Virus record (IMG/VR): IMGVR_UViG_3300049847_000176 | Span: 1 to 33,605 of that record | Reading direction: 5' to 3' (one strand) | DNA length: 33,605 nucleotides | Origin: a virus | Shown here: piece after piece, positions 3,525 to 32,336 of the stretch | How positions within the stretch are numbered: the first letter of the stretch is position 1 | Layout: each line of letters starts with the position of its first letter | The notes under the pieces: model-generated | The model's database searches: none | What the model saw: the letters and a program-made list of their open reading frames with translations, nothing else | Told to the model about the DNA's origin: nothing | Translations under genes and position numbers: made by a program

Positions 3525-4661
3525 ATGGATACAGAAGTCGAGCCGCTCAATACCGAATCCGCTTCGGCTCAGGATTCAAGTTCTGGCGATCTCACAACTC
3601 GGACGCCAGCCGAGAATACGGACGTTCAACCGGCGGAATCGTCCACCGCAACAGGCGATCAAAAGCCGAAATCCATTCTGGAAGCTCTGAAAGGAGTAAA
3701 GCCGGAAGTCGTGGAGGATGCCACGAGCGAGGATCAGCAAGATGGAGATTCGCCCCTCAATCCGAACGCCGAATCAGGCGAGGCCGCAACTGACGTAGCT
3801 GGGGACAATCAGGATGGGCAGTCCACAGCAAAGGTTGAAGCCGACAGTTCTTTGAATCTTCCTTACACGAAAGAAGCAGCGTGGCAAGCGGTGGTCAAGA
3901 ATGTGCCAGCGGACAAAAAATCCGAGGTCATCAAAGCCATTCGCCCCGTGTTCGAGAAATCGCAACGGTTGACGGTTGAGGTTCAGCAGTTGAAGCCCAA
4001 GGCGGCGATAGCCGACGAGTTTCGGCAACATGCCGGGGACGAAGAAGGCTTCAAGACCATGCGACACATCATCCGTGGTTACGCCAGTGGTGATGCGGCC
4101 TGTGTGCCGATACTCGAACAGATGTTGCAGGACTTGAGAGAGCGCACCGGGTTGGTGGTGAGTGACGCTGACATCAAGACGCGCATCGAAAACGGGGAAC
4201 TGGACGAAACCACAGCGACGGAACTGCAACGGACGAGAATCGAGGCGAAAGCCGCGAAGAATCGTTTGACGCAAGCCGAGCAGGAACGCCAGCAACACGA
4301 GGTTGAATCCGCCAGCAATGACGTGGCTCAATCGCTGAATACGTGGGAGGAAAAGGTTCGAGGGCAAGACCCTGATTTCGGGAATGTGACGCCTGATGAA
4401 GACCCCAAGCACGGGGAATCCATCGCGGATCAAGTCTTGGACGGCATCCGGTTACTGCAAATGCGGAATCCGAGAGCCGGGAAAGCGGAGTTGTTGGCGG
4501 AAGCCGACCGCATCCACAAGCTTGCACGCGGGAGATTGCAAAACGTGCGCGGGAGACAGCAGCGGGTCATCACTTCGGAAAGCTCGTCCATAACCGCGCG
4601 TCCTGCGCCCAAGACCATGAAAGAGGCACTAGCTCAAGTCAAACCTGAGCGGGCTTACTGA
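3525..4661 (+). CDS. Head scaffolding protein candidate
   Basis: The protein (378 aa from ATG 3525; an in-frame TTG at 3501 is the alternative, and neither has a clear Shine-Dalgarno) is placed between portal and capsid genes, where podoviruses and siphoviruses encode the scaffold. The first 120 residues are acidic and Ser/Thr/Asp-rich, with low complexity. The C-terminal half is strongly helical and charged, with coiled-coil-like stretches (RTRIEAKAAKNRLTQAEQER) and a basic C-terminal end (RGRLQNVRGRQQR), the usual architecture of scaffolds that contact the coat protein through a basic tail. The call rests on position and composition, not on a sequence motif. Confidence 0.75.
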   Translation: MDTEVEPLNTESASAQDSSSGDLTTRTPAENTDVQPAESSTATGDQKPKSILEALKGVKPEVVEDATSEDQQDGDSPLNPNAESGEAATDVAGDNQDGQSTAKVEADSSLNLPYTKEAAWQAVVKNVPADKKSEVIKAIRPVFEKSQRLTVEVQQLKPKAAIADEFRQHAGDEEGFKTMRHIIRGYASGDAACVPILEQMLQDLRERTGLVVSDADIKTRIENGELDETTATELQRTRIEAKAAKNRLTQAEQERQQHEVESASNDVAQSLNTWEEKVRGQDPDFGNVTPDEDPKHGESIADQVLDGIRLLQMRNPRAGKAELLAEADRIHKLARGRLQNVRGRQQRVITSESSSITARPAPKTMKEALAQVKPERAY

Positions 4662-5782: not shown

Positions 5783-6397
5783 ATGAAAACATTGAAATCA
5801 TTATTCATCGTGACGTTGCTTCTGAGCGTTCTTACCGCGAGCGCGGTGGAGTTCCGGGCGCAATCGTTTCTCAACGTGCAGGCGATCTACCTGACCAATA
5901 CGTTTAACCCGACCAACCTCGCCACGGCGGGCAGTCAGGGAACGAATTGGGTGGGACTCACCTACACGAACAACGGCGTTCGCTTCACTGCGGACGGCAC
6001 AAACCAAACGCGGGTGAATCCGTTCAGGGATGTTGCGTTGTTCGCCTTAACCACAGGCGAGCCAGCGTATAACCCATCAACGAACGGGGTGAACTTCATC
6101 CAAAGCTACGGCACGATCACGGCAACGATGACATCGGGGAGCGGCGCGGACAGTGCCATCTCGTTTGTCGCCACGCCGATCTACGATGGCGTGAATGAAG
6201 CAACTGAGTCAGCGGAACAATGGACGTTTGCGTTCACGCCAACGGTAAGTTCGACGCAGACATTTGCGACCAACGCGCCACTTTACCGATGGCCGGGAGC
6301 ATCCAAGCTACGCATCAGGCGCATTGTCAACTCAGACACGACCGCCGCGGGCAACGTGATCCTGAAAGCGTTGAATTATAACGCTTACTCGCCGTAA
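5783..6397 (+). CDS. Secreted or virion-surface protein with signal peptide
   Basis: This is an unrecognised 204-residue protein directly after the coat gene. The N-terminus MKTLKSLFIVTLLLSVLTASA is a textbook Sec signal peptide, with cleavage expected after the Ala-Ser-Ala. The mature part is Asn/Thr/Gly-rich and beta-sheet-like (VGLTYTNNGVRFTADGTNQT), ending in KALNYNAYSP. In this position most phages carry a head decoration protein. The body would suit one, but an exported precursor would not be available for cytoplasmic head assembly. The alternatives are a host-surface protein made by the phage, or a hydrophobic N-terminus that is not cleaved. The ribosome binding region (CGAAAG) is weak. 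Confidence 0.75.
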   Translation: MKTLKSLFIVTLLLSVLTASAVEFRAQSFLNVQAIYLTNTFNPTNLATAGSQGTNWVGLTYTNNGVRFTADGTNQTRVNPFRDVALFALTTGEPAYNPSTNGVNFIQSYGTITATMTSGSGADSAISFVATPIYDGVNEATESAEQWTFAFTPTVSSTQTFATNAPLYRWPGASKLRIRRIVNSDTTAAGNVILKALNYNAYSP

Positions 6398-6403
6398 GGC
6401 GAG
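6388..6403 (+). terminator. Hairpin with GTAA loop over a stop codon
   Basis: CTCGCC and GGCGAG form a perfect six-base-pair stem closed by a GTAA tetraloop of the stable GNRA class. The TAA stop of the preceding gene lies in the loop. No T-run follows, so this may protect the transcript or attenuate expression, not act as a classical terminator. Confidence 0.4.
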
Positions 6404-6561
6404 AGCGCGGGAAGCGGGTGAATTTAATTACTCATCATCTTCGTCCCTCACCCGCGCACACTTTCTCCCCGGCGGGGGGTCTTGGTTGGTTCATCCCTAT
6501 CAAGTCCCTCGTCGGTGGAGGATCGAACAGTAACGGATGAACCAACAACGAAAGAAAACGG
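6398..6561 (+). promoter_or_regulatory. Structured 164-bp intergenic region
   Basis: This is the longest gap in the structural genes, and no ORF in it looks real. It contains three possible stem-forming elements: GCGGGTGA at 6414-6421 with TCACCCGC at 6448-6455; CCCC-GGC-GGGG at 6467-6477; and a perfect 12-bp inverted repeat, GTTGGTTCATCC at 6485-6496 with GGATGAACCAAC at 6535-6546. The right arm of the last is also the conserved leader found before the gene at 3148 and ends 15 bases before the ATG at 6562. The structure could control how much of the downstream protein is made. Confidence 0.5.
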
Positions 6562-7245
6562 ATGAACACAATCAAATGTCGGATTAAAACGAACGATTTC
6601 AGCGATGCGCCCGGTGTGGGCGTGACTCCGGCTGAGGTCATTCTCCTTCGCACCGTCCACGATAAGCACGCTGGCGGATGCTGCATCAAGCTGGCGCAAC
6701 CCTCTGGCGTTGCCATGACCGAAACAGGCGTCAAGCCGAAGATCATCAAAACCACGGACGGCAGCGGCAACGAGGTTGAGATGAAAACAACCGAACCCGT
6801 CTTGCGCGAGCGCACGGATGCTGAAGAAATCGTCCGGTTACGCGCCAAGTATCAGGTGCGCGCCAAGAGCGGCGCGGCAGGGACGCACATTTGCGACGAC
6901 CTGTTCGGCGGATCCGGCGTTGTGCCGATCCTGCCAAAGACCTTCGCGGAATTGCCGGAACGGTATCGGCAGGGCTTGAAGATCGAAGTCAAGCCGGTGG
7001 AGGCGGTATCGGTGGCGGCACTGGATGGCGTTACCGAACAAACGCCGTCACCCGAAGTCATCGCGGCAAGTGCCGCACCCAGCCCGACATCCCCACGCGA
7101 TGAACTACTTGCCAAGACCAAGGGCGAACTGGTCACGATTGCCACCGAATACAAGGTTGAAAACGTGGGAAAGCTGAACAAAGCCGAGTTAATCGAGGCG
7201 ATTTTAACCAAGGCCGGATATACCGACCCCGTGACGGCGCAGTGA
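6562..7245 (+). CDS. Virion-module protein with C-terminal Rho-N/SAP-like helical domain
   Basis: The function of this 227-residue protein is unknown. Residues 1-150 are mixed alpha/beta with no motif I recognise, but include a run of Cys/Gly (HAGGCCIKL) and LRERTDAEEIVRLRAKYQV. After a Pro/Ala-rich linker, the last 45 residues (DELLAKTKGELVTIATEYKV, then GKLNKAELIEAIL) match the helix-extended-helix pattern of Rho N-terminal, LEM and SAP domains, which bind nucleic acid or proteins and are common at the C-terminus of small phage head-completion proteins. The start at 6562 follows the repeated leader. A hairpin terminator follows the stop. Confidence 0.75.
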   Translation: MNTIKCRIKTNDFSDAPGVGVTPAEVILLRTVHDKHAGGCCIKLAQPSGVAMTETGVKPKIIKTTDGSGNEVEMKTTEPVLRERTDAEEIVRLRAKYQVRAKSGAAGTHICDDLFGGSGVVPILPKTFAELPERYRQGLKIEVKPVEAVSVAALDGVTEQTPSPEVIAASAAPSPTSPRDELLAKTKGELVTIATEYKVENVGKLNKAELIEAILTKAGYTDPVTAQ

Positions 7246-7252
7246 TAAAAGC

Positions 7253-7277
7253 GGGGCGCGGCATTGGGCCGCGCCCC
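7253..7277 (+). terminator. Strong GC hairpin, probable terminator
   Basis: GGGGCGCGGC (7253-7262) and GCCGCGCCCC (7268-7277) make a perfect ten-base-pair stem with a five-base loop, directly after the stop at 7245 and followed by TTCTGACTT. The T-tract is short, so termination may be partial. The next gene starts ten bases beyond the stem. Confidence 0.6.
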
Positions 7278-7286
7278 TTCTGACTT

Positions 7287-7997
7287 ATGGCACTCGGAAC
7301 AACACTGGACGCGATCCTTGAAATGGTGAAGGCCGAACTAATGGCCGACATTGACGATGCCGTGTCGCCAGGTGGGGACGCGCTGGTGAAAATCCAGATT
7401 GCCAATCAACAGAAATGGCTCGCGCTGCGTTACGAGTGGCCTTTCTTGGAAGATGAAGCAGACGTAGCGATTGAGGTCGGGACGCGCATTTACACGCTTC
7501 CCACCACGCTCGAATTTGGAAAACCCGTCAAGGCTCAGACGTATTGGGGTGAATTGTGGAGTGGAGTACAGCTTGGGATTGATCCTGAGCGCGATTACAA
7601 CTTTCTCAATCCATCTCTCGACCAGCGGTTTGATCCCGTTCAGCGATGGCGCATGTATCTGACGGGGACAACGAATCAATTTGAAGTCTGGCCGATCCCG
7701 GCGACGGCGGGCGTGTTCCGGTTCACGGGACAAATCGTTCTTCCTGCGCTTACGGCGGGCACAGATACCGCCGTATTGGATGACTTGCTGATAGCCCAAT
7801 TCACAGCGGCCAAGCTCGCCACGCGCATGAAGCAGGCGGATGCCTCGGCATTGCTGGCTCAGGCCAACGAGACATTGAAGCAGATTCGCGCGGGTTATCC
7901 CAAGCCTGCGGTGATGTTCAACTATTCCGGTCAGGATACGCGCAAGCCGCGTCATTGGAATCGCCCCACCGTAGCGACCATGATTTCACCCTCGTAA
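7287..7997 (+). CDS. Head-tail adaptor (connector) candidate
   Basis: The 236-residue protein has the pattern seen in many podovirus neck or adaptor proteins. A helical N-terminus leads into IANQQKWLALRYEWPFLEDE, then a beta strand pair around VGTRIYTLPTTLEFGKPVKA, then FEVWPIPATAGVFRFTGQIV, and finally a helical C-terminus with QFTAAKLATRMKQADASALL. Position after the head genes and before tail genes agrees. This family joins the portal to the tail. The identification rests on motif pattern and gene order, and I cannot assign it to a particular named family. Confidence 0.65.
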   Translation: MALGTTLDAILEMVKAELMADIDDAVSPGGDALVKIQIANQQKWLALRYEWPFLEDEADVAIEVGTRIYTLPTTLEFGKPVKAQTYWGELWSGVQLGIDPERDYNFLNPSLDQRFDPVQRWRMYLTGTTNQFEVWPIPATAGVFRFTGQIVLPALTAGTDTAVLDDLLIAQFTAAKLATRMKQADASALLAQANETLKQIRAGYPKPAVMFNYSGQDTRKPRHWNRPTVATMISPS

Positions 7998-8009
7998 CCC
8001 AATAAAACC

Positions 8010-8705
8010 ATGAAAACACTCTCTTATTTCTCCGCATCAGCCGCTCAGGTGGCGCAACACGGCGTTGATGTCATCAAACTCGAATGGATGGGCGCAAGCG
8101 GACTGGCAGCGGCGCGATTCATCCAGGTGCATGACGCCTACGCAGCCCCGATAGACACCGCAGTGCCAAAAAAAGTCTGGCCGATCTACCCCAGCGCGGC
8201 GGGCTACAAGGTGTTCGACGTGGGTGAACTGGTATTGGAGAACGGACTTTACATCTGCATCAGCACGACCGAGGCGACCAAGACACTTGCGAGCGGTGCG
8301 GACGACTTCTCTACGCTCATGGTGGAGTTGCGCGAGGCGGAATCCCCGGCGGGGACGAGCTACGCGGGCGACCTGACCACGGCGGATGAAGTGTTGCAGG
8401 TATGGGCGGATGCCGCAGGGCCGAAGCGGTTGTTTGAAATCATCACCACGAACAGCTACGGCGGTGTTGGCTATCTGCAAATCCATGCGGCGAACACGCC
8501 AAGCGATGAATCGTTGGTTGAAGAATTTGAGATCGCGGACGGTGAGACGAAGCGTTTGACGTTCGGCAAGGATGGGCGCGAAGTGAGCAAGAAAGTCAGC
8601 AACGCCATCGCCAACGGTTGCACGTTGGCTTACAGCAGCACAGCGGGCAGTTACACGGCGATGGGATCAAACGGCGCAACGATCCGCGCGGAATACAAAG
8701 CTTGA
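8010..8705 (+). CDS. Structural protein with two related domains
   Basis: I do not recognise this 231-residue protein by name. It appears to have two copies of one beta-rich unit. Residues about 35-115 begin with ARFIQVHDAYAAP and contain VGELVLENGLYICISTTEAT; residues about 153-231 begin with GYLQIHAANTP and contain FGKDGREVSKKVSNAIANGC. Both share aromatic-x-Gln-(Val/Ile)-His at the start, a Gly-rich turn in the middle and a closing beta strand. Units like this occur in tail or baseplate-like phage proteins. No strong ribosome binding site is seen before ATG 8010. Confidence 0.65.
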   Translation: MKTLSYFSASAAQVAQHGVDVIKLEWMGASGLAAARFIQVHDAYAAPIDTAVPKKVWPIYPSAAGYKVFDVGELVLENGLYICISTTEATKTLASGADDFSTLMVELREAESPAGTSYAGDLTTADEVLQVWADAAGPKRLFEIITTNSYGGVGYLQIHAANTPSDESLVEEFEIADGETKRLTFGKDGREVSKKVSNAIANGCTLAYSSTAGSYTAMGSNGATIRAEYKA

Positions 8706-8709
8706 ACTT

Positions 8710-10422
8710 ATGAAAAAACTGATTTGGTGGGTTGGTTTGTGTGGGTTGGCGTTGGTGGTGCAGGCTCAAGAGCCTGTGCCGCCAGCGGCCACAGTTGCCG
8801 AAGTCGCAGCCGGGACAGACCGCTACAAGATTGTGACACCCTACGGGCTTGCCAACGGCGGCGGACAGTCGAATGGTGTCGCAGCGGCGACCGCAACGAA
8901 CATTGCGGCGTATCAGGCGTTGATTGCGACGAACGGCTTGGGTGCAGGCGACGTAACCCAATCCAACCTCGCGGCGGGGATTGTGCCAATCAGGACAACG
9001 AACGATTTCGCAGTGACGATTTCCTCGCGTGGAATTGCAAACGGTCAAAGCTCAATCTCGAACAACGGGGCGATGTATGGAATTGACACTCCAAGCACGA
9101 CAACTTGCGGCATTCAGGAGGCGATCAACGCTTGGGACAGGGGGACTAATTACGGGCCAACCATTTCAACGCTATCGCTCGAATTTGGGCCGGGTATTTT
9201 CTTCTATTCAAACGTCATCACACTGTCAAATCTCTACACATCTGCAATCACTTGGCGCGGACAATCTCAGCTTGGAACTACATGGGCTTATGCTGGAGCA
9301 ACGACAGTAACTAACACGATTACTGTGACGGGCGGGGATAACACGAATGGAAGCTCGCTTGATATTCCGATTCACTTAACTGTCCGAGACGGAACCTTCA
9401 CTGCGTTGACCAATAGCACGAACGTCTTGCTTTATATTGACCACGTATCTGCAACCTATCTCGAAAACCTCAACTTCACTGGATGGAACGTAAGAACGAA
9501 TCAAGAGACGGGTTCGGGTGTTAGCATGTATCCAACTGCGTCTTTGTTCGCACCCGGTCTTGTGGGTTTAAGAATCAACCAAGAATACGATCACAACTTC
9601 ACGATGGATAATATCTTCTTCGCTGGCTTGGCGGTAGGGGCGAGAGTGAAATCAGATCACGTCGTTGCCCGCAATCTCAAGTTTGCGATGATTAGCTACG
9701 GTTCTTACGGCTCAACAAATATCTGGCACACCAATTCAATTTACAGCATCGGCGCAGGAATCATCCAAGAAGGAAGCTCCTACGATTCGAGTTGGCATTA
9801 TGGTCACTGCTACGCGATGCGCGCTGGGTTTGCTGGTGTCGGTCAGCTTCATTATTCCAAACTTTTGAACTGGCATTTTGAGTCAATTCAATTCCCGATT
9901 TTATCTGACTCGGAATACGTTCCGACATTGATTGAGCCAGCAGCTACCAGTGAGAGCATGGCGTTTATAGACCAGTATCAATTATTCACTCCAACGTCAG
10001 CCAACTATCCGACAAACGGTTATTGTCCCACAACTATTCCGGCGATTGGTGCATTTGCTTACGGTTCAGGCAAGTGGGATTCCGTAACGTATGCGCTTTA
10101 TGTTCGCTTGGCCAACAATCTGATTTTCGTAATTGACGGCGCGAGCGGCGCGTTGTCCGCAGACGCCAGCGGAATGACTGGAATCCCGGCGGCGGCATTG
10201 GCCGATGGAACAACTGGCAGCGGCACATTTGCGAGAAGTTCAAGTCCAGCGTTCACAACTAAAATAACAGTAGGCACACCGTCAGTCACATCTGGAAGCG
10301 GAGCACCTTCAGCAAACGAGCCGATTGGTAGTTTGTATATGAGGACAGACGGAAGCACATCAACATCGCTTTATGTAAAAACCGCGAGCGGCGCGGGCGC
10401 AGGAAATTGGACTGCAAAATGA
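8710..10422 (+). CDS. Tail spike/fibre candidate with signal peptide
   Basis: The 570-residue protein starts with a signal-peptide-like segment (MKKLIWWVGLCGLALVVQA, cleavage before QEP). It continues with the fibre-like motif DRYKIVTPYGLANGG and a long beta-rich part (about residues 120-420), rich in Asn, Thr and aromatic residues, that suggests a right-handed beta-helix. The C-terminus (GSGAPSANEPIGSLYMRTDG, then SLYVKTASGAGAGNW) is a motif very common at the ends of phage tail fibres and spikes. It probably binds or degrades host surface glycans; no catalytic residues can be named. The middle of the gene has visibly lower GC content than its neighbours, a sign of exchange of the receptor-binding part. 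The Sec-like N-terminus is odd for a virion protein. Confidence 0.75.
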   Translation: MKKLIWWVGLCGLALVVQAQEPVPPAATVAEVAAGTDRYKIVTPYGLANGGGQSNGVAAATATNIAAYQALIATNGLGAGDVTQSNLAAGIVPIRTTNDFAVTISSRGIANGQSSISNNGAMYGIDTPSTTTCGIQEAINAWDRGTNYGPTISTLSLEFGPGIFFYSNVITLSNLYTSAITWRGQSQLGTTWAYAGATTVTNTITVTGGDNTNGSSLDIPIHLTVRDGTFTALTNSTNVLLYIDHVSATYLENLNFTGWNVRTNQETGSGVSMYPTASLFAPGLVGLRINQEYDHNFTMDNIFFAGLAVGARVKSDHVVARNLKFAMISYGSYGSTNIWHTNSIYSIGAGIIQEGSSYDSSWHYGHCYAMRAGFAGVGQLHYSKLLNWHFESIQFPILSDSEYVPTLIEPAATSESMAFIDQYQLFTPTSANYPTNGYCPTTIPAIGAFAYGSGKWDSVTYALYVRLANNLIFVIDGASGALSADASGMTGIPAAALADGTTGSGTFARSSSPAFTTKITVGTPSVTSGSGAPSANEPIGSLYMRTDGSTSTSLYVKTASGAGAGNWTAK

Positions 10423-10625
10423 CCTCCCTCGAACGCAAACTCAGAATCGAAAACCATCCTGACAAATGGGGTGGCGATCATTCGCGTATGGAGGCCGTGT
10501 TCGCAGCAATAAAACCTCGTAGCAATAAGAAGATTGACGTGAATCATTGCCGTGAGTGCGGCGTGGCCTGCAAGGGCAAAACATGCAAAGCGCATGAGCG
10601 GACAAGAAAGGCGGTGGGAGTATGA
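10419..10625 (+). CDS. Small zinc-binding protein (68 aa)
   Basis: ATG 10419 overlaps the stop of the spike gene (ATGA), and the stop overlaps the next ATG in the same way, so the gene is translationally coupled on both sides. The first half is helical and charged (MTSLERKLRIENHPDKWGG). The second half carries a compact cluster, HCRECGVACKGKTCKAHER, with four Cys and two His suited to bind one zinc ion, followed by a basic tail. Function is unknown. It may bind RNA or DNA, but the sequence does not show that. Its placement inside the tail region is unusual. Confidence 0.65.
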   Translation: MTSLERKLRIENHPDKWGGDHSRMEAVFAAIKPRSNKKIDVNHCRECGVACKGKTCKAHERTRKAVGV

Positions 10626-11092
10626 GTAGAACACTGCCGCTTATTGTTTTGCTGATGTCAGTAACATGTTCCTTCGCCCAGCGCGGCACTGGTGCGAATC
10701 CGGTGGCAACGACCACAACTGTCAGCATGTTCGCTATCGTTCTCGGCACGTTCAAACAAACTTACGTGACATGGGATAATCCACCCGGCGCAAGCAATCG
10801 TGTTTCATGGGGCACGGTTCGCAACTACTGGACGAACGGCGCGGCCACGATCACCACAAACACTTTCCCTGTCACGAATGGATGGCAATACAAGTTCACA
10901 GCGATTGTGAACGGTGTTGAATCAATCCCTGCGCTTTGGCCGAGTAACCGCATCGGCGAGCTTTGGCTTACTGGTATGGGCACAAACTTTACAGGTGGGA
11001 CAAACATTGTCCGACTGAATCGGTTCACAAACTCGCCACCAGGCAACATGCAACTGTGGGGCGTGGCGAATTTAACAATCGGATGGGAATGA
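10622..11092 (+). CDS. Secreted protein with FnIII-like body
   Basis: The 156-residue protein begins MSRTLPLIVLLMSVTCSFA, a clear signal peptide with cleavage before QRG. The mature part resembles one immunoglobulin or fibronectin type III fold: YVTWDNPPGASNRVSWGTVR, later NGWQYKFTAIVNGVESIP, a pattern typical of FnIII strands B-C and F-G. It is coupled to the upstream zinc protein by an ATGA overlap. It could be a virion fibre accessory or a surface protein that the phage adds to its host, for instance to block superinfection. That role is speculation; the export signal and fold are what the sequence shows. Confidence 0.65.
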   Translation: MSRTLPLIVLLMSVTCSFAQRGTGANPVATTTTVSMFAIVLGTFKQTYVTWDNPPGASNRVSWGTVRNYWTNGAATITTNTFPVTNGWQYKFTAIVNGVESIPALWPSNRIGELWLTGMGTNFTGGTNIVRLNRFTNSPPGNMQLWGVANLTIGWE

Positions 11093-11102
11093 AAGGGAGC
11101 GC

Positions 11103-11282
11103 ATGAATAATGAAGATCACCGGGACACAACCATCAAGCACGAGGAAATCTTGAAGCGTCACGATGGCATGTTGACCGATCACGAGCGGCGCGTTCGCTG
11201 GTTGGAGAAGGTGGCGTTCTACGTCATCGCGGGTTTGTTTGTCGGCAAGTTTGTTTGGGACATCTACACAAAAGGAAAATAA
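11103..11282 (+). CDS. XhlA-like membrane protein (59 aa), lysis accessory candidate
   Basis: A frame of 59 residues runs from ATG 11103, just after GGGAGC. The N-terminal 35 residues are a charged amphipathic helix (IKHEEILKRHDGMLTDHERR), followed by RWLEKVAFYVIAGLFVGKFV, which contains one transmembrane segment, and a short polar tail. This arrangement (acid-basic helix, HERRVRWLE, then one membrane helix) matches the XhlA haemolysin family that assists holins in phages. The next gene, two bases downstream, also looks like a membrane protein of the lysis type. No endolysin gene is visible nearby. Confidence 0.65.
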   Translation: MNNEDHRDTTIKHEEILKRHDGMLTDHERRVRWLEKVAFYVIAGLFVGKFVWDIYTKGK

Positions 11283-11284
11283 TT

Positions 11285-11878
11285 ATGGAAGAAATCGTAA
11301 ATCAACTGAACGGAATCATTCCTCAAAAATATCTCAGCTTGCTGACGGCGTTATTCGTCGGCTCGCAAGTGCTGGGGCGTATTGCACAATCCATCCGAAG
11401 CGGTGGCGGGTTGCGTTCAATCATTCGCGGCATCTGGTTCGGCACGAATACCGTCACACCAAAGCAGGCCGCTCCACCAGAACCCAGCATTGCTGACAAG
11501 ATCACTGGTTGGTTGCTCGTTGGCATCATGACGTTGGCATTGTCTGGCTGTGGCACGCTCTACACGAACATCGTCACCATGAAGAAGGTGGGAGATTCAA
11601 TCAGCGCGGAATACGCTCAACTCTACAAGGCTGGGTTGATTTCGCCTGAGCAGGATGCCAAAGCCGAGGCTGCACATGCGGAGTATCGGGAGGCGATGGG
11701 CGTCTTAGCTACTGCTTTGGAAGCAGCGCAGTTGTCCGGCGATGCCAGCGACGTTCCGGGCAAGTTACGCGCTGCAAAGCAGGCGATCACGCCGATGCTC
11801 AATCTGATTTCACCGTTGCTGAGTAATAGCAAGGCGAACACGTTGCAGAAACAATTAACCACAGCGAGCGCACAATGA
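11285..11878 (+). CDS. Holin-like N-terminus joined to a lipoprotein-like C-terminus
   Basis: From ATG 11285 the 197-residue protein has a hydrophobic segment at about residues 15-35 (PQKYLSLLTALFVGSQVLG) and a basic stretch (RSGGGLRSIIRG). A second hydrophobic segment (ITGWLLVGIMTLALSGC) ends in a perfect lipobox, LSGC, with Cys at residue 89. The remaining part is Ala-rich, helical and Gln-rich at the end, like a periplasmic spanin or helical lipoprotein. Either this is one membrane protein whose second helix happens to hold a lipobox, or it is a holin fused to an outer-spanin-like lipoprotein, or an internal start makes the lipoprotein separately. Location in a lysis-type cluster fits all three. 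Confidence 0.6.
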   Translation: MEEIVNQLNGIIPQKYLSLLTALFVGSQVLGRIAQSIRSGGGLRSIIRGIWFGTNTVTPKQAAPPEPSIADKITGWLLVGIMTLALSGCGTLYTNIVTMKKVGDSISAEYAQLYKAGLISPEQDAKAEAAHAEYREAMGVLATALEAAQLSGDASDVPGKLRAAKQAITPMLNLISPLLSNSKANTLQKQLTTASAQ

Positions 11879-12051
11879 GCGAAGCATTTTGGATAGCGAT
11901 TTTCGGGTCAGCGGCAAAGATCGGACTGGAAGCCACGGCGATCCTGCTTGAAACGGCGGGCAAGCCGGACGCGACGATTGCGGACGCGGCGAAGGCGTGC
12001 CGTGAAGCAGCCACGAAAACGCTTCAACAGTTCAAGGATGAAGCGAAATAA
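11875..12051 (+). CDS. Small helical protein (58 aa)
   Basis: ATG 11875 overlaps the previous stop (ATGA). The protein starts with a short hydrophobic stretch (AFWIAIFGSAAKIGLEATAI) and continues with an Ala/Lys-rich amphipathic helix (ADAAKACREAATKTLQQF). It may associate with membranes through the N-terminus. I do not recognise a family. Coupling to the lysis-type genes hints at a membrane-linked role, but that is inference. Confidence 0.55.
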   Translation: MSEAFWIAIFGSAAKIGLEATAILLETAGKPDATIADAAKACREAATKTLQQFKDEAK

Positions 12052-12064
12052 CTAGGAAAAAATT

Positions 12065-12466
12065 ATGGCAACAACCAATTCAGATTACGCAGAGAACAAG
12101 GTGGTGGATCACATCCTCGGCACAGCGTCTTTCACGATGCCAGCGGCGGTGTCGCTGGCGTTGTTCACCACGAACCCAAACTTTGAGACTGGCGCAGGCG
12201 GCACAGAAGCCACTGGCGGAAGTTACGCACGCAAGTCACTCGTGTTCACCGCTTCGAGCGGCGGAGCGACGAGCAACACCGCGCAAAAGGTCTTCACCGT
12301 AGGCACAGACCTTGCCGCCGGGACTTACACGGGCTGGGCTGTGTATGATGCCGCGTCAGGTGGCAACATGCTTTTTGGCGATGCGTTTGCCTCAAGCCGC
12401 GTTGTCAGCACGACGGGCGACACGATCACATTTGCAGCGGGGGCAATCACGTATTCACTGACGTAA
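12065..12466 (+). CDS. Tail fibre-type protein (133 aa)
   Basis: The pattern of this short protein is familiar from many phages as a tail-fibre-like structural protein. The N-terminus AENKVVDHILGTASF is followed by VSLALFTTNPNF, then GGTEATGGSYARKSLVFTAS, then GWAVYDAASGGNMLFGDAF and a closing beta strand GDTITFAAGAITYSL. All of it is beta-rich, and no enzyme motif is present. It sits with two further fibre-like genes. A ribosome binding site (CTAGGAAAAA) precedes it. Confidence 0.75.
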   Translation: MATTNSDYAENKVVDHILGTASFTMPAAVSLALFTTNPNFETGAGGTEATGGSYARKSLVFTASSGGATSNTAQKVFTVGTDLAAGTYTGWAVYDAASGGNMLFGDAFASSRVVSTTGDTITFAAGAITYSLT

Positions 12467-12467
12467 T

Positions 12468-13055
12468 ATGCTTCTCCTCACTTCAACATCAGACCTGCTA
12501 AAGCTTGTCACGAGCGCGGCGGGGGATATAGAGGTTCATGCGTCTTGGGTGGACAATGCCAGCGGCACGATCACACCGGGACGCACAAACACCGCAAGCA
12601 TTACGACAGCCACGACTACGACAATAGTTGCTGCTCCAGGTGCAAGCACTCAACGAAACGTAAAGCTGCTGACGGTCACAAACCATCACGCGAGCGTCAC
12701 AAATGTCGTTGAGATATATCACACGGACGGCACGAACGAGAACGAACTTTGGAAAGGAACTCTGCTCGCAGGCGAAAGCGCGTTGATGACTGAAGCGGGG
12801 GACTGGATTGTTTATACGAGTGGCGGCGCGCGGAAAGAATCTTCATTCGTCGGACCCGTTGACGTGCAGGTGTTCACCGCTACGGGCGCGGGCACATGGA
12901 CAAAACCAACGAGCTTCACTCCCAAAGTTGTTGAAGTCGTCATGTGGGGTGGTGGCGGCGGCGGTGGCGGTGGAGGTGGGTGCGGAATGAATCCCGGCCT
13001 CGGCGGTGCTGGTGGCGCGGGTGGGCGCGGCACGATTTACGTTTATACGTGGTAA
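12468..13055 (+). CDS. Fibre protein with glycine-rich tip
   Basis: The 195-residue protein has a beta-rich N-terminal half (VKLLTVTNHHASVTNVVEIY and ELWKGTLLAGESALM) of the type found in virion proteins. From about residue 134 the motif VFTATGAGTWTKPTSFTPKV leads into VVEVVMWGGGG, a run of eleven glycines, and a Gly-rich end with GAGGAGGRGTIYVY. This is the classic glycine-rich tip domain of phage fibres and adhesins, where Gly-rich loops bind the receptor. It starts one base after the previous stop. Likely role: receptor binding. Confidence 0.7.
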   Translation: MLLLTSTSDLLKLVTSAAGDIEVHASWVDNASGTITPGRTNTASITTATTTTIVAAPGASTQRNVKLLTVTNHHASVTNVVEIYHTDGTNENELWKGTLLAGESALMTEAGDWIVYTSGGARKESSFVGPVDVQVFTATGAGTWTKPTSFTPKVVEVVMWGGGGGGGGGGGCGMNPGLGGAGGAGGRGTIYVYTW

Positions 13056-13058
13056 CAA

Positions 13059-13829
13059 ATGGCAAAGATTGGACAATTTGACGAGACGTTGACAGCTAAA
13101 GGCTGGTTCGGCGAGGCGGCTATTGTCGAGGGTTGGTTTGATAACAGCTTGATTGAGACTCCGGGCGGTGGCGGCACAAACTACAACGAGTCTGGAAGTT
13201 GCGCGGTGGGTAGTGCGGTTTCGGCGATTGCGGTGGTGACGTTGGCGGCGGTGGGTAGTGCGGTGTCAGCGTCAGCGGCGACCGGAGCGGCACTGGTGAA
13301 TAATCCGTCCGGGGCGGCAACAGTTGCCAGCGTGAGTGCGATCACGGGCGCGGCGTTGGTGTCCCTCGTGGCGTCCGGCACAACGTCAAGTGTAAGTTCA
13401 GCCACGGGCACGGCCAGCACCAACGCTCCGGCGAGCGGTAGTGTTGTAACAATTTCAGCCGCCACAGGCGCGGCGCGGGTGAATCTTGTCGCTACCGGAA
13501 GCCTTGTTTCAAGTTCGGCAGGCATCGCCACGGCGACGGTTTCGTTCAACGACATAGGCACGGCGACTGGAACATCATCTATATCTGGCGCGGCGTCAGT
13601 AAATCTACTGGCATCTGGCGATGTCGCGGCAACATGCACAGCGACAGGGGATGCTACGGTGGGAAGCGTTGGCGCAAACTTTAACGAGACTGGCAGTGTT
13701 GTCGTGGTCTGCACGATCACTGGTTTAGAGACACAACAATGGGCTTATCCGGTGCGCGCGAAAGGGACTGGCACTATTGGCAGAGCATCAAGCCGGATGA
13801 GCGGCGGACTTGTGACATTACAACGATGA
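13059..13829 (+). CDS. Repeat-containing structural protein (256 aa)
   Basis: The N-terminus has a motif repeated within itself (QFDETLTAKGWFGEA then VEGWFDNSLIET) that I associate with phage structural proteins of this type, followed by a Gly-rich hinge. From about residue 70 to 160 the chain consists of four imperfect repeats of 20-21 residues with the core TGAA(L/R)VxL and SSVSxA, composed almost only of Ala, Ser, Thr, Val and Gly. This suggests an elongated beta structure. No charged residues occur over long stretches. Function is unknown; position next to fibres suggests a shaft or surface protein. The stop overlaps the next start (ATGA). Confidence 0.6.
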   Translation: MAKIGQFDETLTAKGWFGEAAIVEGWFDNSLIETPGGGGTNYNESGSCAVGSAVSAIAVVTLAAVGSAVSASAATGAALVNNPSGAATVASVSAITGAALVSLVASGTTSSVSSATGTASTNAPASGSVVTISAATGAARVNLVATGSLVSSSAGIATATVSFNDIGTATGTSSISGAASVNLLASGDVAATCTATGDATVGSVGANFNETGSVVVVCTITGLETQQWAYPVRAKGTGTIGRASSRMSGGLVTLQR

Positions 13830-16324
13830 GCTACTTGGTAATAGAAAACTTTCAAGCCGGGCTGGACACGCGCAAAGCGGAGTTAGCAGCCCCGGCGGGG
13901 ACGTTGACTGAGGGCGTGGACGGTCACATCACACCTGGGGGCGAATTTGAAAAGAGGAAGGCATTTTTTCCGTTGGAGAATCCTGACGTGGCGGAGACAG
14001 ACAGTTTGCCACCCAGCACGTTCGGATTACAGCCCGTGGCTGGCGGTTTGATGGTGTTCGGGAGCGATGCACAATCCGGCGCGCAATGGCCGGACGACGC
14101 GGACGGGAACGCGGTGACGTATCAGCGGTTGCAACATCCGGCAGTATTGGCAGGGGAAACTTACAGCGCGGGAAGTCACGCAATGACGGCGGTGATACAT
14201 TCTGAGGTGTACGGCGGATTGGCGTTTGTCATCGCCGAATACGCGGACGGTCACAGGTTTGGTTACTACGATGGGTCATTGGTGGACGATTTCACGGCGG
14301 GATTGATCCTGCCGTATCTGGCGGGACAGGCGAACAATCCCAAGATTGCGGCACACATCGAGGGATTGATTGACCAGCTTGCGAATTACAGCGCGGCGTT
14401 GGTGGGGCCGTATGCGACGACCAATCGCTCGCACTCAGGCACTCAGGCTACGCTTACTATCGGCACGCACACGCTGAACATTGACGACAAGGTTTATGTG
14501 ACGGGCATCGCCACGTCGGGATACAACGTCACTGGCGCGGCAATCGTCGCTAAGACCGCAACCACGATCACCTACAACACCGGTACGACGTTGACCGAGG
14601 GCACGACGGCTGAGACAGGCGGCACGGTAAAAACCGGGTTGCTGGACATTGACGGGCCTGTTGGTGTGCCTTTCACGCTTTCTGCGGACGCGGAATCAGC
14701 GGCGGGTTCGGTCAACACACCAGAGAACACGATTTCACCAGTGACGCCGGTTGAAGGCGCGGAAGCGGTAGGGGCGTTTTCGATTACGGGCGGCACGGAT
14801 GATGGGGTAACACCCGTCATCAGCACAGGCTCAGTGAACAGCACAGCTACCAATGCGGCGGCGGGTGAGTGGGTGCAGATTGGCAAAAAGAAATACACCT
14901 TTCGGACGGCGGGAACGATGGCAGTCGAGGGGGATGTTAAAATCGGCGCGAACGCAGCGGCCACGCTTGCCAATCTCAAATCCGCCATCAACCACACTGG
15001 AACAGCGGGAACAGACTACATCTGTTCATGGGCGCATCCGTGGGTTTATGCTGGCACGATCACAGGTTCGCCGGGAGTTTTGCCATTAAAAGCCTACGCC
15101 GGGAGTCACGGCAATAGCATCCCCCTGAAAACGACAGCCGCGACGAGCCTTTGGACGGTTACAGGTTTGGCGGCGGGATCAACTGACACCAAGATGACTG
15201 CGGCTGGCGTGGGCAACTGCATCGGATCGGTGAAGGTGGTTTCACCCGCTGGCGTGGAAACCGAATTGTTGGCGGTAAGCGGCGGCTCGCCGACCCCTAT
15301 CCGGTTTCAAATCAACACCAGCGCGACAGCGGCACAGGTGCGGGACGCGATCACAGCAAACGCGGGCGTCAGCGGTTACACGGCCACGATCAACGAGAAC
15401 CGCGTAACGATCCTTTCATCCGATGCGGCCAGCCCGATGCCGAACGGGTATCATCTACAAATTGCCTCTGGCGGCAATGTGTTGGTTGGGGAGTGCATGT
15501 TTTATCTGAACCAGCAAGCGGCGGCGTTTGGGTTGAACACAATCCTTGTGGATGGATTAGACTGTTTGGCGGGCGCGGAAGCGTTCCCACAGACCGGCAG
15601 CACGGGCGTAGCGGTGGATACATTGCCGGAGTATTACGACGAACTGGCATATATCATCAATTCTCGCGCAGGCATCACTGGCATCAGCGCATGGACGGAT
15701 GGTTCAATGGTCAAGCTGAGTCAGATCACCACACGGGACGATGATTCGCCGCTGGCGGTATATGTGACGCCCACTGTGGCAACGCCTGTTGGAGTCGGAA
15801 TTGTGTTTGGAGAACCTCCACCGCTGACATTGCCGCTGAGTGTCGTATTGCCGGAGTTTGTGTCATTCCCGAATACAGACGGAATTGCGTTGTCTGGATA
15901 CGTCATTTACAGCGATGCAGCGCACAACAACCCGTGCTACGTCTATGGTCTTTTGGCTCAAACGGTATTGACGCCAATTTCCGTCACAGGCGGCAACGGT
16001 CTATTCACCTACGAATGGATAAAAGAACCTGCGCTGGACGCGATCGTACTTCACCAAACGGTATTCAAAAACGGGAACAACGCTACCGGAAACGTATCTG
16101 GTGCTTGCAACATCATATTTGAGACATCGCCAGCTAACTCGCGCGTTGTCAACATCGCTTGCAAGTCTTACATCAACTTCAATCAAAGCGGCGTGGTGAC
16201 TTTTATATCTCAAGACATCCTTTCAACAGGAAGGTTTTTTTCCTACTGGCGTCTCAAGGTCACAGACTCAGCGGGCAACACAGCGGTATCCAATCCGTGC
16301 TTGGTCGAGTTCAACATCACCTAA
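13826..16324 (+). CDS. Stabilisation/tail protein, N-terminal part of a split gene
   Basis: From ATG 13826 (ATGA overlap with the gene before) the 832-residue protein begins with LVIENFQAGLDTRKAELAAP, then GTLTEGVDGHITPGGEFEKR. This is the N-terminal signature of P22 gp10-like packaged-DNA stabilisation or T7 gp12-like tail proteins. The body is interrupted by beta-rich segments, among them one around HTLNIDDKVYVTGIATSGYN. The last 130 residues look like an immunoglobulin-type domain (SVTGGNGLFTYEWIKEP, then YWRLKVTDSAGNTAVSNP). The usual C-terminal signature is absent here and appears in the next gene. Confidence 0.7.
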   Translation: MSYLVIENFQAGLDTRKAELAAPAGTLTEGVDGHITPGGEFEKRKAFFPLENPDVAETDSLPPSTFGLQPVAGGLMVFGSDAQSGAQWPDDADGNAVTYQRLQHPAVLAGETYSAGSHAMTAVIHSEVYGGLAFVIAEYADGHRFGYYDGSLVDDFTAGLILPYLAGQANNPKIAAHIEGLIDQLANYSAALVGPYATTNRSHSGTQATLTIGTHTLNIDDKVYVTGIATSGYNVTGAAIVAKTATTITYNTGTTLTEGTTAETGGTVKTGLLDIDGPVGVPFTLSADAESAAGSVNTPENTISPVTPVEGAEAVGAFSITGGTDDGVTPVISTGSVNSTATNAAAGEWVQIGKKKYTFRTAGTMAVEGDVKIGANAAATLANLKSAINHTGTAGTDYICSWAHPWVYAGTITGSPGVLPLKAYAGSHGNSIPLKTTAATSLWTVTGLAAGSTDTKMTAAGVGNCIGSVKVVSPAGVETELLAVSGGSPTPIRFQINTSATAAQVRDAITANAGVSGYTATINENRVTILSSDAASPMPNGYHLQIASGGNVLVGECMFYLNQQAAAFGLNTILVDGLDCLAGAEAFPQTGSTGVAVDTLPEYYDELAYIINSRAGITGISAWTDGSMVKLSQITTRDDDSPLAVYVTPTVATPVGVGIVFGEPPPLTLPLSVVLPEFVSFPNTDGIALSGYVIYSDAAHNNPCYVYGLLAQTVLTPISVTGGNGLFTYEWIKEPALDAIVLHQTVFKNGNNATGNVSGACNIIFETSPANSRVVNIACKSYINFNQSGVVTFISQDILSTGRFFSYWRLKVTDSAGNTAVSNPCLVEFNIT

Positions 16325-16327
16325 ATC

Positions 16328-17743
16328 ATGGGAAGCATCTCAACAACCGTATCTCCCCTGCTTGGCGGCGTAACTGCCGTGGCTGGGGTATCGTCGCGCT
16401 GGCGCGCGGAGATTGACGGCACGTATGCGGTGGCTGATTTATTGCGGTTTGTGGTGACGAACGCGGCCACGGCGGAAACGCTGATTGCAGGCTACGGCAC
16501 AGTGACCGGGCTTGATCCAAGTTTTCTGTTCACGTTCAGTAACAAGGTCAATTTCCTTTCGGCATCGGCGTGGTATTTCTCGGCGGTGGCGGCACCAACC
16601 GAGTTCAACGACACGCAGCGGCTTGGTAATGGATTTATCGAACTGGCGAACACGTTCGGCACGGTGGAGGATTTGATTGCTCTGGCGACGTATCAGGTGG
16701 GCATTGCGGCTATCAGCCGTCGCAACACACAGATTTGGACGGTTGATCCCGATGCGGCAAACTATCAGAAGCATCAGACGCTTGCCAACATTGGCACGAT
16801 GGCGAAGCTATCCGTGGCGAGCGTGGGCGACATGGATGTGTACATGCTCGCGGATAACGGCATCCGCAGCATCCGGGTGCGTGACGCCAGCAACAACGCC
16901 ATCATAGCGGACATCGGATCGCCGATAGACGAGATTATCCAAGGGTTGCTTGAGACGTTGACCGAGGAACAGAAGGCGGCGGCGTGCGGCGTGATTGAGC
17001 CGTCGTCAAACCGCTACTGGCTTTACCTGCCCGGCGGACACATCTACGTGTTCAGCTACTTCCCAAGCAGCGGCATTGCGGCGTGGTCGAGATACTTGCC
17101 GAAGTGGGACGTTGGCGGCACGGCATTGAGTCCGACATTGGTATCTACAACTGCCACCTACACCGCGACCGTTGGAGCGATTTATTATTGGGACGCCAAG
17201 AATGGCGATTCATCACTGACCTGCGGCACTACGGTTTTGACTGAGGCGGGATATTTTACGGCATCCGTAGCACTGGTTACGGTGCAAAGGCTTGCGGGTC
17301 CGGGATTATCCTACGGCACGATCAAACCTAAGAGTTTCACGACGTTCACGCCCGAGCGGTTTGTAGTCATGAATGGCCGGGTGTATTGCAGGGCTGGCGA
17401 CAAGATTTTCCTCTACGGCGGATTGGATAACCAGACTTACGATTGGTGCGAACCTCAATGGGACATCCCCTATCTGAACGCCAAGAGTCCGGCCACGCGC
17501 AAGGTGTATCACGGGTTGGACGCCATTTGTGAAGGCACATGGCAAGTCAGCTTGGGTACAAACGTGGCTGATGACGATGATGTTGCGCTGGTGTATTCCA
17601 ACGCAGGGTCAAGCGTGATGAGAGGTAAAGCATTAACCGGAAAACAAGGCACACACTTCAAACTAAGAGGCGTGGAGCAGAGCGGCGGTTACGCGCGGTT
17701 CAGCAGCGCAATCCTTCACTACGAGGGAGGCGACAACAAGTGA
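16328..17743 (+). CDS. Stabilisation/tail protein, C-terminal part of a split gene
   Basis: The 471 residues contain the part missing from the upstream gene. SAWYFSAVAAPTEFNDTQ and ISRRNTQIWTVDPDAANYQK are followed by VGDMDVYMLADNGIRSIRVR and ADIGSPIDEIIQ, which match the conserved C-terminal core of gp10/gp12-like tail proteins. The beta-propeller-like rest (SNRYWLYLPGGHIYVFSYFP) also fits. It starts three bases after the stop of the first part. Both products would have to meet in one tail complex. A sequencing error is unlikely to explain the split, because the first gene ends in a complete extra domain. Confidence 0.7.
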   Translation: MGSISTTVSPLLGGVTAVAGVSSRWRAEIDGTYAVADLLRFVVTNAATAETLIAGYGTVTGLDPSFLFTFSNKVNFLSASAWYFSAVAAPTEFNDTQRLGNGFIELANTFGTVEDLIALATYQVGIAAISRRNTQIWTVDPDAANYQKHQTLANIGTMAKLSVASVGDMDVYMLADNGIRSIRVRDASNNAIIADIGSPIDEIIQGLLETLTEEQKAAACGVIEPSSNRYWLYLPGGHIYVFSYFPSSGIAAWSRYLPKWDVGGTALSPTLVSTTATYTATVGAIYYWDAKNGDSSLTCGTTVLTEAGYFTASVALVTVQRLAGPGLSYGTIKPKSFTTFTPERFVVMNGRVYCRAGDKIFLYGGLDNQTYDWCEPQWDIPYLNAKSPATRKVYHGLDAICEGTWQVSLGTNVADDDDVALVYSNAGSSVMRGKALTGKQGTHFKLRGVEQSGGYARFSSAILHYEGGDNK

Positions 17744-18228
17744 GTAATGATTACATGAGCCAACCGCACGAACAAATGAAACAGCCGGAAGCATTGGCAG
17801 CGATCCAGAAGATTGCAGCGGCGTCGGGTGAAGGCAATCGCGCGGTGGTGTTCAATGCGTTGTGGAGTTTTTGGAACTTCGCCCACGTGTGGGACGACCT
17901 GATTGACGGCAGCGGTTGGCCGGAAGAAAAGAAGAAGCTCGCGTGGCGCGCGTTGCAGGAGTTCACGAGCGACCTGTTGTTGAATCCATTTTACCGGGCG
18001 CACGGCGCGGAGATACGGGCGTTGTTCACGAGCGCAATCTTCCGGCAGATGGCCGGGGACAAGATGGGGGAGAGCGCGGACGAACAAACGCGATTGATTG
18101 CGCCAGCGGTGCGGTGCGCGGACATTGATTGTCTCGTCCACTTTGCCTATCTCGCTGGCGGATGGGAACTGGCGCACGAGATCAGCCAGGCGCGCGACTA
18201 CGACAAACCCGACAAGGAGGGCAAATAA
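17740..18228 (+). CDS. Conserved phage hypothetical with HVWDDLID motif
   Basis: Translation starts at GTG 17740, which overlaps the previous stop (GTGA); ATG 17755 is an alternative. The 162-residue protein is almost all helical. Central features are NALWSFWNFAHVWDDLIDGS, then LLLNPFYRAHGAEIRALF and CLVHFAYLAGGW. The WDDLID acidic motif looks like a metal-binding helix of the terpenoid-synthase type, but the protein is too short for that family and the similarity may be accidental. I recall comparable short proteins among phage tail and internal virion genes, without known role. Its product is probably made with the tail proteins. Confidence 0.6.
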   Translation: MSNDYMSQPHEQMKQPEALAAIQKIAAASGEGNRAVVFNALWSFWNFAHVWDDLIDGSGWPEEKKKLAWRALQEFTSDLLLNPFYRAHGAEIRALFTSAIFRQMAGDKMGESADEQTRLIAPAVRCADIDCLVHFAYLAGGWELAHEISQARDYDKPDKEGK

Positions 18229-18229
18229 T

Positions 18230-18826
18230 ATGTATGGCGGATCAAACAACGCAGCGGGTGCGGCGCGACAAGCCGAAGAAGAACGGCAGCAACGCATCAA
18301 CGAAGGGCGGCGTGACATAGACTCGAAGTTCGCCCCGTTCGACAACAACTTTTACGATCAGCGCGCGAAGGATTACGAGAGTTACGCCTTGCCACAGTTG
18401 GCAACACAAGAGCGGGACACGCGCAACCAGCTTGCGGCGGCGTTGGCGCGGAAAGGCTTGCTCAACTCCGGCGCGGCCATTCAGGGCACAGCCAAGCTAG
18501 ATCAATACGCCAACCAGAAACGTCAGGACGTGGCGATGGCGGGATTGGGTGAGGCAAACAAACTGCGAAGCCAAGTGGAAGATCAACGCACGACGTTGAC
18601 CAACCAACTGATTTCCAGCGGGGATCCCTCAGCGGCGAGCAGCGGGGCGCAAGTGGCGGCGGGGAATCTGAAACGCCCAAGCGCGTTCGGAGCGTTGGGC
18701 AATTTCTTCTCCGACTGGACGGACACCTATCGCGCGAACCAGCAGGCACGCGCCTACGACGATAAAGTTCCGCAGATGTTCAGCTTTGGCGGCAACAACA
18801 AGGGAAGCGTGAGTTACGTGAACTGA
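18230..18826 (+). CDS. Internal virion protein candidate, helical (198 aa)
   Basis: A strong ribosome binding site (AAGGAGG, eight bases before ATG 18230) marks the start; the open frame upstream overlaps the previous gene and was not used. The sequence is helical with many Gln, Ala and Arg residues. Characteristic parts are AEEERQQRINEGRRDIDSKF, then FDNNFYDQRAKDYESYALPQ, and LAAALARKGLLNSGAAIQGT. This pattern occurs in podovirus proteins that are carried inside the head and ejected with DNA. Such proteins line the channel built through the cell envelope. Two more of the same style follow. Confidence 0.65.
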   Translation: MYGGSNNAAGAARQAEEERQQRINEGRRDIDSKFAPFDNNFYDQRAKDYESYALPQLATQERDTRNQLAAALARKGLLNSGAAIQGTAKLDQYANQKRQDVAMAGLGEANKLRSQVEDQRTTLTNQLISSGDPSAASSGAQVAAGNLKRPSAFGALGNFFSDWTDTYRANQQARAYDDKVPQMFSFGGNNKGSVSYVN

Positions 18827-18827
18827 T

Positions 18828-19619
18828 ATGAAACTGATACACCCCAGCGAGCGGCAAGACCCCATGTTGTCTATCAGCGGAAACGCACTGACGGCAACCC
18901 GGTATTGCGTGTATCCCGTCGCATTGGTGGCTGGGTTGGCATTGTCAGCAGCAGGGACAGGGCTTTCAATGGCTGGCGATGCCAAGTCAAAGAGCGCGAT
19001 GAACGACGCGCAGAACGCGGAGTTGCTTCGGCAGAAGGGTTATCAGCAGGAGGCGGACGCGGCGTTTCAAGGCAATCTCAAGAAGTCAGGGCGCGACACG
19101 GCGGACACCGAGACGGAACAAGGCGCGACACGGCGCATGGCGGAGTTTAATCGCGTCAACGCAGCGGCAGGCACGAGTGCGCCTTTGGCTTCTGAACGCG
19201 CTGGGGGATCGAGTGCAGCGGGCGCGGCGGCACGCACGGCGGCGACCACTCAGGCCAGTAACAGCGCGTGGAGTAAGTTGACCGGCGATGCTCGCGCTAA
19301 ACTCGGCGGAGCGGATGATTGGGAATTGAATCAAGGCATCCGAAACAATCGCGCGGGGCAAGATTTAGGCATTGCCAGCAGCAAAGCACGCGGAAGCGCG
19401 GCGGTGTTGCCGGTGGAGATGGTGGCGGCACAACACAAAGGCGATGCGTTACGCGGCTGGGGGCAGTTGGCGAGCGCGTTGGGCAGCGTGGCGGGAATGT
19501 ATGGGGCGACGACAGCGGTAAGCGCGGCGGGGCAAGGTGGAGTTGCCAGCGCAGGCGGCGTCAAAACACTTTACGATGCCCCGTCAGCTTGGGGAATGGC
19601 AAACGCGGCAACGGCATAG
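18828..19619 (+). CDS. Internal virion protein candidate, Ala-rich (263 aa)
   Basis: The gene begins one base after the previous stop. The N-terminus has a hydrophobic segment (YPVALVAGLALSAAGTGLSM, about residues 30-50) that could insert into a membrane, then a charged helix (AELLRQKGYQQEADAAFQGN). The remainder is Ala/Gly/Ser-rich with a second hydrophobic patch near the end (GWGQLASALGSVAGMYGATT). The mix of small-residue membrane helices and soluble helices is typical of ejection proteins. No enzyme motif is seen. Identification rests on composition and on its place before the giant protein. Confidence 0.6.
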   Translation: MKLIHPSERQDPMLSISGNALTATRYCVYPVALVAGLALSAAGTGLSMAGDAKSKSAMNDAQNAELLRQKGYQQEADAAFQGNLKKSGRDTADTETEQGATRRMAEFNRVNAAAGTSAPLASERAGGSSAAGAAARTAATTQASNSAWSKLTGDARAKLGGADDWELNQGIRNNRAGQDLGIASSKARGSAAVLPVEMVAAQHKGDALRGWGQLASALGSVAGMYGATTAVSAAGQGGVASAGGVKTLYDAPSAWGMANAATA

Positions 19620-31977: not shown

Positions 31978-32240
31978 GTTTTCGTGCGGAACAGCAGCCA
32001 TGTGCCTGCGGTGATGCCAGCAAGGGTCAACAGTTCAACGGCAAGAATATCTGCGGCGATTTGAGCGCGGACGGGCCAGCTTGTGTTGTTGCCTTTAGGT
32101 GGATCAAACAGTGGCGACCATGCAAGCTCTACGCTGCGCTCGTGTCCCGATGGGTCTTTGGTGACGATTCTCCAAGGGGGATTTAACAACAATGCAACCA
32201 ACGACACAGCGGCAAGAGCGGTGATGATTTTGGTTTTCAT
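31974..32240 (-). CDS. Small membrane protein (88 aa)
   Basis: The start at ATG 32240 follows a Shine-Dalgarno AGGAAA eight or so bases upstream. The N-terminal hydrophobic stretch (MKTKIITALAAVSLVALLL) is a membrane anchor or uncleaved signal. A polar part follows (DPSGHERSVELAWSPLF), and a second hydrophobic segment (AADILAVELLTLAGITAGTW) precedes the basic end FRTKT. Two membrane passes put both ends on the same side. It is coupled to integrase. Membrane proteins in lysogenic regions often exclude other phages, which is a possibility here without direct support. Confidence 0.65.
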   Translation of the reverse strand: MKTKIITALAAVSLVALLLNPPWRIVTKDPSGHERSVELAWSPLFDPPKGNNTSWPVRAQIAADILAVELLTLAGITAGTWLLFRTKT

Positions 32241-32336
32241 CGGGTTTTTCCTGTCAGTAATCGTTCCTATTGACGCAAGTGGCTGACTGTGAATAATCGC
32301 CAGCACTTACCACATTTGGGGACAAACTCATGGCAT

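Follow-up and report, generated by a model that had tools for sequence, protein, structure and literature searches.

The window, a virus contig of 33.6 kb, carries a late block of podovirus type. It runs from a terminase gene, cut at the contig start, through portal, scaffold and major capsid protein (MCP; phrog_9953) genes to SP1 and a Rho_N-domain protein, followed by an SU10-type adaptor, a block of extra genes, a tail-nozzle gene pair and ejection-type proteins, the last of which include a 2779-aa ORF; an integrase is encoded on the other strand. The closest isolates by capsid, Microcystis phage Mae-Yong1326-1 and Rhizobium phage RHph_N65, reach only ~31–36% identity. Two newly found relatives, L095 (found with a portal alignment) and L173 (found with a capsid alignment), have MCPs ~49–54% identical to that of the window, and these three contigs make up the clade considered here, with L173 ending inside the cassette. 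As single queries, SP1, SP2, SP3 and the capsid protein gave no match in scans for close relatives, and tblastn with SP1 and SP3 gave none among isolate phages, while a scan of genomes with the capsid alignment matched alphaproteobacterial prophages only. The tail nozzle, a single chain in relatives, is split in the window (13739–17743): the product of 13739–16324 matches the ~140 N-terminal residues of the nozzle and has a long extra part, and that of 16328–17743 matches the C-terminal part. The 2779-aa ORF (20550–28889) has no blastp relative in the related loci that were fetched; its neighbours have many.

Three genes of the late block, all on the plus strand and all starting with ATG, begin with predicted signal peptides and lie exactly at 5783–6397 (SP1), 8710–10422 (SP2) and 10622–11092 (SP3). 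SP1, directly after the major capsid gene, encodes 204 aa, with a signal at 5783–5845 (N-terminus MKTLKSLFIVTLLLSVLTASA/VEF, predicted cleavage after ASA at residue 21) in front of a Thr/Asn-rich (24.6%) beta-type protein. SP2 (570 aa) occupies the spike slot and is composed of a signal at 8710–8766 (MKKLIWWVGLCGLALVVQA/QEP, predicted cleavage after VQA at residue 19), a tail-fibre linker, a beta-rich body and a C-terminus of phage-fibre type. SP3 (156 aa) combines a signal at 10622–10678 (MSRTLPLIVLLMSVTCSFA/QRG, predicted cleavage after SFA at residue 19) with a small Thr/Asn-rich (27%) domain that is FN3-like by eye only. The Thr/Asn-rich composition is reminiscent, we assume, of exported proteins of Verrucomicrobiota. 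None of the three matched a Pfam, PHROG or PADLOC family, including any defence or exclusion family, and alignment-free AlphaFold2 models were too poor to use (mean pLDDT 40 for SP1 and 34 for SP2). Two candidate identities for SP1 were set aside: the capsid decoration protein that is the first gene after the MCP in sister phages (hhalign probability 0.4%), and an agglutinin, to which the profile match was weak (E 0.04).

Signals were scored by a simple heuristic based on a positive n-region, an uncharged h-region and the -3/-1 rule, with a cut-off of 3.1. SP1, SP2 and SP3 scored 4.22, 3.59 and 3.67, within the range of nine known E. coli signal peptides (3.19–4.38), while none of the remaining 24 of the 27 called window genes reached 3.1 (best 2.48) and none of 826 copies of head and tail backbone genes in related loci scored as signal-bearing. 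These results bear out an earlier note on this DNA, which had described well-formed signal peptides at 5783, 8710 and 10622 and had proposed checking them by prediction and by comparison with relatives. At the same time, 3–16% of sequences with shuffled first 40 residues still scored above 3.1, so that a single heuristic score is not decisive and the weight of the case rests on conservation.

Other scoring genes in the related loci were mostly small and upstream of terL. In this position, the related phage L005 has a gene (3589–4395) for a signal-bearing protein that ends in a PEP-CTERM-type sorting signal (VPEPATMTILGVGLIGLAALRRR). A 113-aa signal-bearing protein, unrelated in sequence to SP1, is encoded between the capsid and nozzle genes of another relative, L061 (11623–11964). 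In the window itself, a small minus-strand ORF (31974–32306) flanked by the integrase gene and a 100-aa gene has a signal-like or membrane-anchor start and a hydrophobic end, which makes it a candidate for a prophage-expressed membrane protein.

What decides the matter, as we read the sequences, is that L095 and L173 have signals in these three slots too, so that the proposed comparison with relatives came out in favour of the signals. Gene order is kept in both (capsid, signal protein, Rho_N protein, adaptor, g231, signal-bearing spike, signal protein), and all slot partners have the features of Sec type I signals found in SP1–SP3, namely a positive n-region, a hydrophobic h-region and small residues at -3 and -1. 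SP1 has a signal-bearing homologue in L173 (7983–8627; 31% identity over 173 residues, E 2e-19), although the signals of this pair could not be aligned, and a signal-bearing slot partner in L095 (14685–15377). The SP3 slot partners in L095 and L173 likewise carry signals, and no homology was detectable between window SP3 and L095 SP3; homology of mature parts with relatives was found in slots 1 and 2. When compared with their partners, the signal stretches of the window showed only the similarity expected of shuffled sequences (z -0.9 to 1.1); the mature parts were clearly homologous (z 4.0 to 21.2). The charges and -3/-1 sites of the signals are kept although their sequences diverge, and drift of the signal in front of a homologous mature part is therefore the pattern of signal peptides rather than of virion anchors. 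One exception is an extended positively charged n-region shared by the SP1 signals of L173 and L095 (z 6.1). In-frame GTG or TTG codons, potential downstream starts, follow every window signal, but three phages would need to use such a start while each retained an entire signal ahead of it. In L173, the gene after SP3 (SP4; 13355–13972, truncated where the contig ends) also carries a signal, making it the fourth such gene in succession, and L095 has a lipoprotein gene further on, past the SP3 slot.

The genes around SP1–SP3, also on the plus strand, are in part conserved, and several lack signals. The conserved Rho_N-domain head-region protein (6562–7245) and the SU10-type adaptor (7287–7997), which marks the left edge of the extra-gene block, are both without signal, as is the conserved g231 (8010–8705; partners L173:10166–10867 and L095:16654–17439), invariably found directly upstream of the spike gene. 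Further on, g207 (11255–11878) fuses a holin-like N-terminal stretch to an internal lipobox, LALSGC, whereas the holin-like stretch and the lipoprotein are two separate genes in L095. A gene at 12065–12466 encodes a signal-less protein of the podophage GP4 fibre I (gp80) family (PF23140, E 2.7e-30), a candidate virion fibre beside the genes predicted to be exported. Packing in this region is tight: SP2 starts four bases past the end of g231 in the window, whereas in L173 and L095 the two overlap by four bases; all three phages have the SP3 start overlapping the stop before it, and across the three the starts of SP2, SP3 and SP4 abut or overlap preceding stops. A promoter search of the region found none above chance, and the packing is operon-like, a layout suggestive of late co-expression with the structural genes rather than of independent morons.

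Conservation among the three spike-slot proteins is confined to the linker AATVAEVAAGTDRYKIVTPYGLA (8785–8853; SP2 residues 26–48), of T4-gp34 type, with the motif ATxxEVxAGTDxxxxVT. BLAST with the linker returned ~1,100–1,200 phage records, mainly proximal subunits of long tail fibres, collar fibres and minor tail proteins. Six isolates that were sampled have it 58–544 residues into proteins without a signal; in the window, L095 and L173 it starts ~6–8 residues past the predicted cleavage site, and the N-terminal virion-anchoring region that would precede it was not found in the spike-slot proteins of these three phages. The bodies differ. The L095 partner gene (17436–19220) has a body that is pectate-lyase-like and matches a tail-spike PHROG, and the L173 partner gene (10864–12753) one that is GH27 alpha-galactosidase-like (Pfam 1.3e-7; 5.7e-15 against alpha-galactosidase 6f4c), with the nucleophile motif DYLKTD against DYLKYD and a plausible acid/base Asp if a one-residue shift is allowed. 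In window SP2 the body is beta-rich and the C-terminus of fibre type, and no catalytic domain was recognised, so that the combination of linker and exchangeable body typical of fibres and tailspikes is found in the clade as a whole, and in window SP2 itself only as the linker and a C-terminal fibre motif. In the sister phages L069 and L070, the slot between adaptor and nozzle holds a fibre with an N-terminus common to both and without a signal, followed by a part that differs. Because the isolates' linkers sit deep in signal-less proteins and the L069 and L070 fibres share a signal-less N-terminus, the anchor appears to have been replaced by an export signal in the SP2 slot.

A second version of this architecture is found in contigs related to Rhizobiales phages, where fibre or beta-helix proteins of L016, L024 and L087 have a signal followed by a distinct linker, GNIPxQTVLGNP, suggesting that the combination of signal and linker may have arisen more than once. 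A search of alphaproteobacterial genomes with these fibres gave mostly weak chance matches. A signal in front of a fibre-like linker was also seen near an integrase in a bacterial chromosome (L187/L195), which is a lead only.

We infer from these sequences, with about even confidence, that SP1–SP3 are late-made, Sec-exported proteins that all act on the host envelope, SP2 being a de-anchored spike. Late in infection, Sec would export and cleave the products of the three genes. SP2 would be tail-spike-like, with a signal peptide acquired in place of the lost virion-anchoring N-terminus, giving a layout of signal, fibre linker and an exchangeable glycan-active or receptor-binding body, with SP1 and SP3 (and the fourth gene in L173) as smaller exported companions. 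From the periplasm or from outside, these proteins may act on the envelope of the very cell that produces them, trimming or covering the surface glycans used as receptors, which would let progeny depart cleanly, with no re-adsorption to the cell or to debris from it, and would keep competitors out. On this reading, spike-like proteins would be directed to the host surface instead of, or ahead of, being incorporated into new particles. Of the fates raised in the earlier note, delivery to the periplasm or surface is thus the likeliest, given signals that look real and are kept in relatives, with export itself a prediction; the role of decoy or superinfection block that it put forward fits SP1–SP3 as a candidate.

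Placement in the virion gene block does not imply that SP1–SP3 belong to the virion. All three genes do lie beside head and tail genes, and the spike bodies resemble tail spikes, as would be expected if these were true outer virion proteins, routed through Sec to mature in the periplasm and dock at lysis on virions built in the cytoplasm, perhaps with g231, always directly upstream of the spike gene, as docking partner. P22 tailspikes can indeed bind tailless heads after lysis. However, the mature proteins have no recognised docking domain, the gp80 fibre could serve as virion fibre instead, and we know of no periplasmic route of spike assembly in tailed phages, which leaves this explanation unlikely, if worth serious attention.

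The phage encodes an integrase, and in lambda the gene for the exported protein Lom lies between those for tail spike and tail fibre (PMC12309495); both facts would suit proteins expressed from the prophage to alter the surface of the lysogen. SP2 and SP3, however, are packed without gaps in the structural operon, with no convincing promoter or terminator on their flanks, an arrangement that points to late rather than lysogenic expression on the basis of gene packing only, and we regard lysogenic conversion as decidedly unlikely.

The earlier note had offered uncleaved hydrophobic N-termini, kept in the virion as plugs, as its other option. These N-termini are the only anchor candidates that remain in SP2, and the extended n-region common to the L173 and L095 SP1 signals would suit an anchor. 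Nevertheless, anchors are usually the most conserved part of a spike, as in L069 and L070, while here it is the mature parts that are homologous, and the window signals resemble those of their orthologues at chance level with -3/-1 sites and charges kept. This option is further weakened because two otherwise unrelated types of fibre linker each have a signal in front, and we consider it quite improbable. That secreted glycosidases feed the host during infection is more doubtful still and can be given very little credence: GH27 and pectate-lyase-like domains are present, but the fibre linker, the non-enzymatic SP1 and SP3 and the change of enzyme from phage to phage are more in keeping with receptor recognition.

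The favoured reading, export to act on the host envelope, has partial counterparts in known systems. Lambda Lom likewise carries a signal peptide, is exported and is coded inside the tail gene block (PMC12309495); it is an outer-membrane beta-barrel, whereas SP1–SP3 had no match in Pfam, PHROG or PADLOC and SP2 has features of fibres and spikes. The Llp protein of T5 prevents adsorption to infected cells and fragments of lysed cells (PMC9586334), and Llp, like the Cor lipoproteins, is phage-coded and exported for a purpose comparable to that proposed here. Llp, however, is a small lipoprotein, expressed early, and acts by jamming FhuA, while SP1–SP3 are larger, probably late, and have glycan-active bodies in one slot. 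The MAT fibres of Bdellovibrio, phage-like fibres with a signal peptide that are displayed on the cell (PMC10769870), show that such exported proteins can function at a cell surface. MAT genes, however, are chromosomal in the predator and encode a conserved domain of ~130 residues behind the signal, whereas those described here belong to phages and encode a short fibre linker. Podophage tailspikes and depolymerases share with the SP2 slot a beta-helix or glycosidase body swapped between relatives, a tail-fibre linker and the position between adaptor and nozzle; the sampled ones have a signal-less N-terminal region before the linker, where the SP2 slot has a signal peptide. Signals are not usual in phage glycoside hydrolases, being absent from those of Bacillus phages (PMC4595243), and the verrucomicrobial phage P8625 likewise yielded none (PMC4642752).

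The usual assumption is that tail fibres and spikes stay in the cytoplasm until they join the virion. In this clade, a tail protein seems to have become a secreted tool directed at the host surface, or to serve as one in addition; if periplasmic assembly were true instead, the virion would be completed in two compartments. The clade is also a caution that glycosidases with annotations of phage auxiliary metabolism or virion depolymerase may be neither, and it offers a direct test of how phages stop their progeny from sticking to dying cells.
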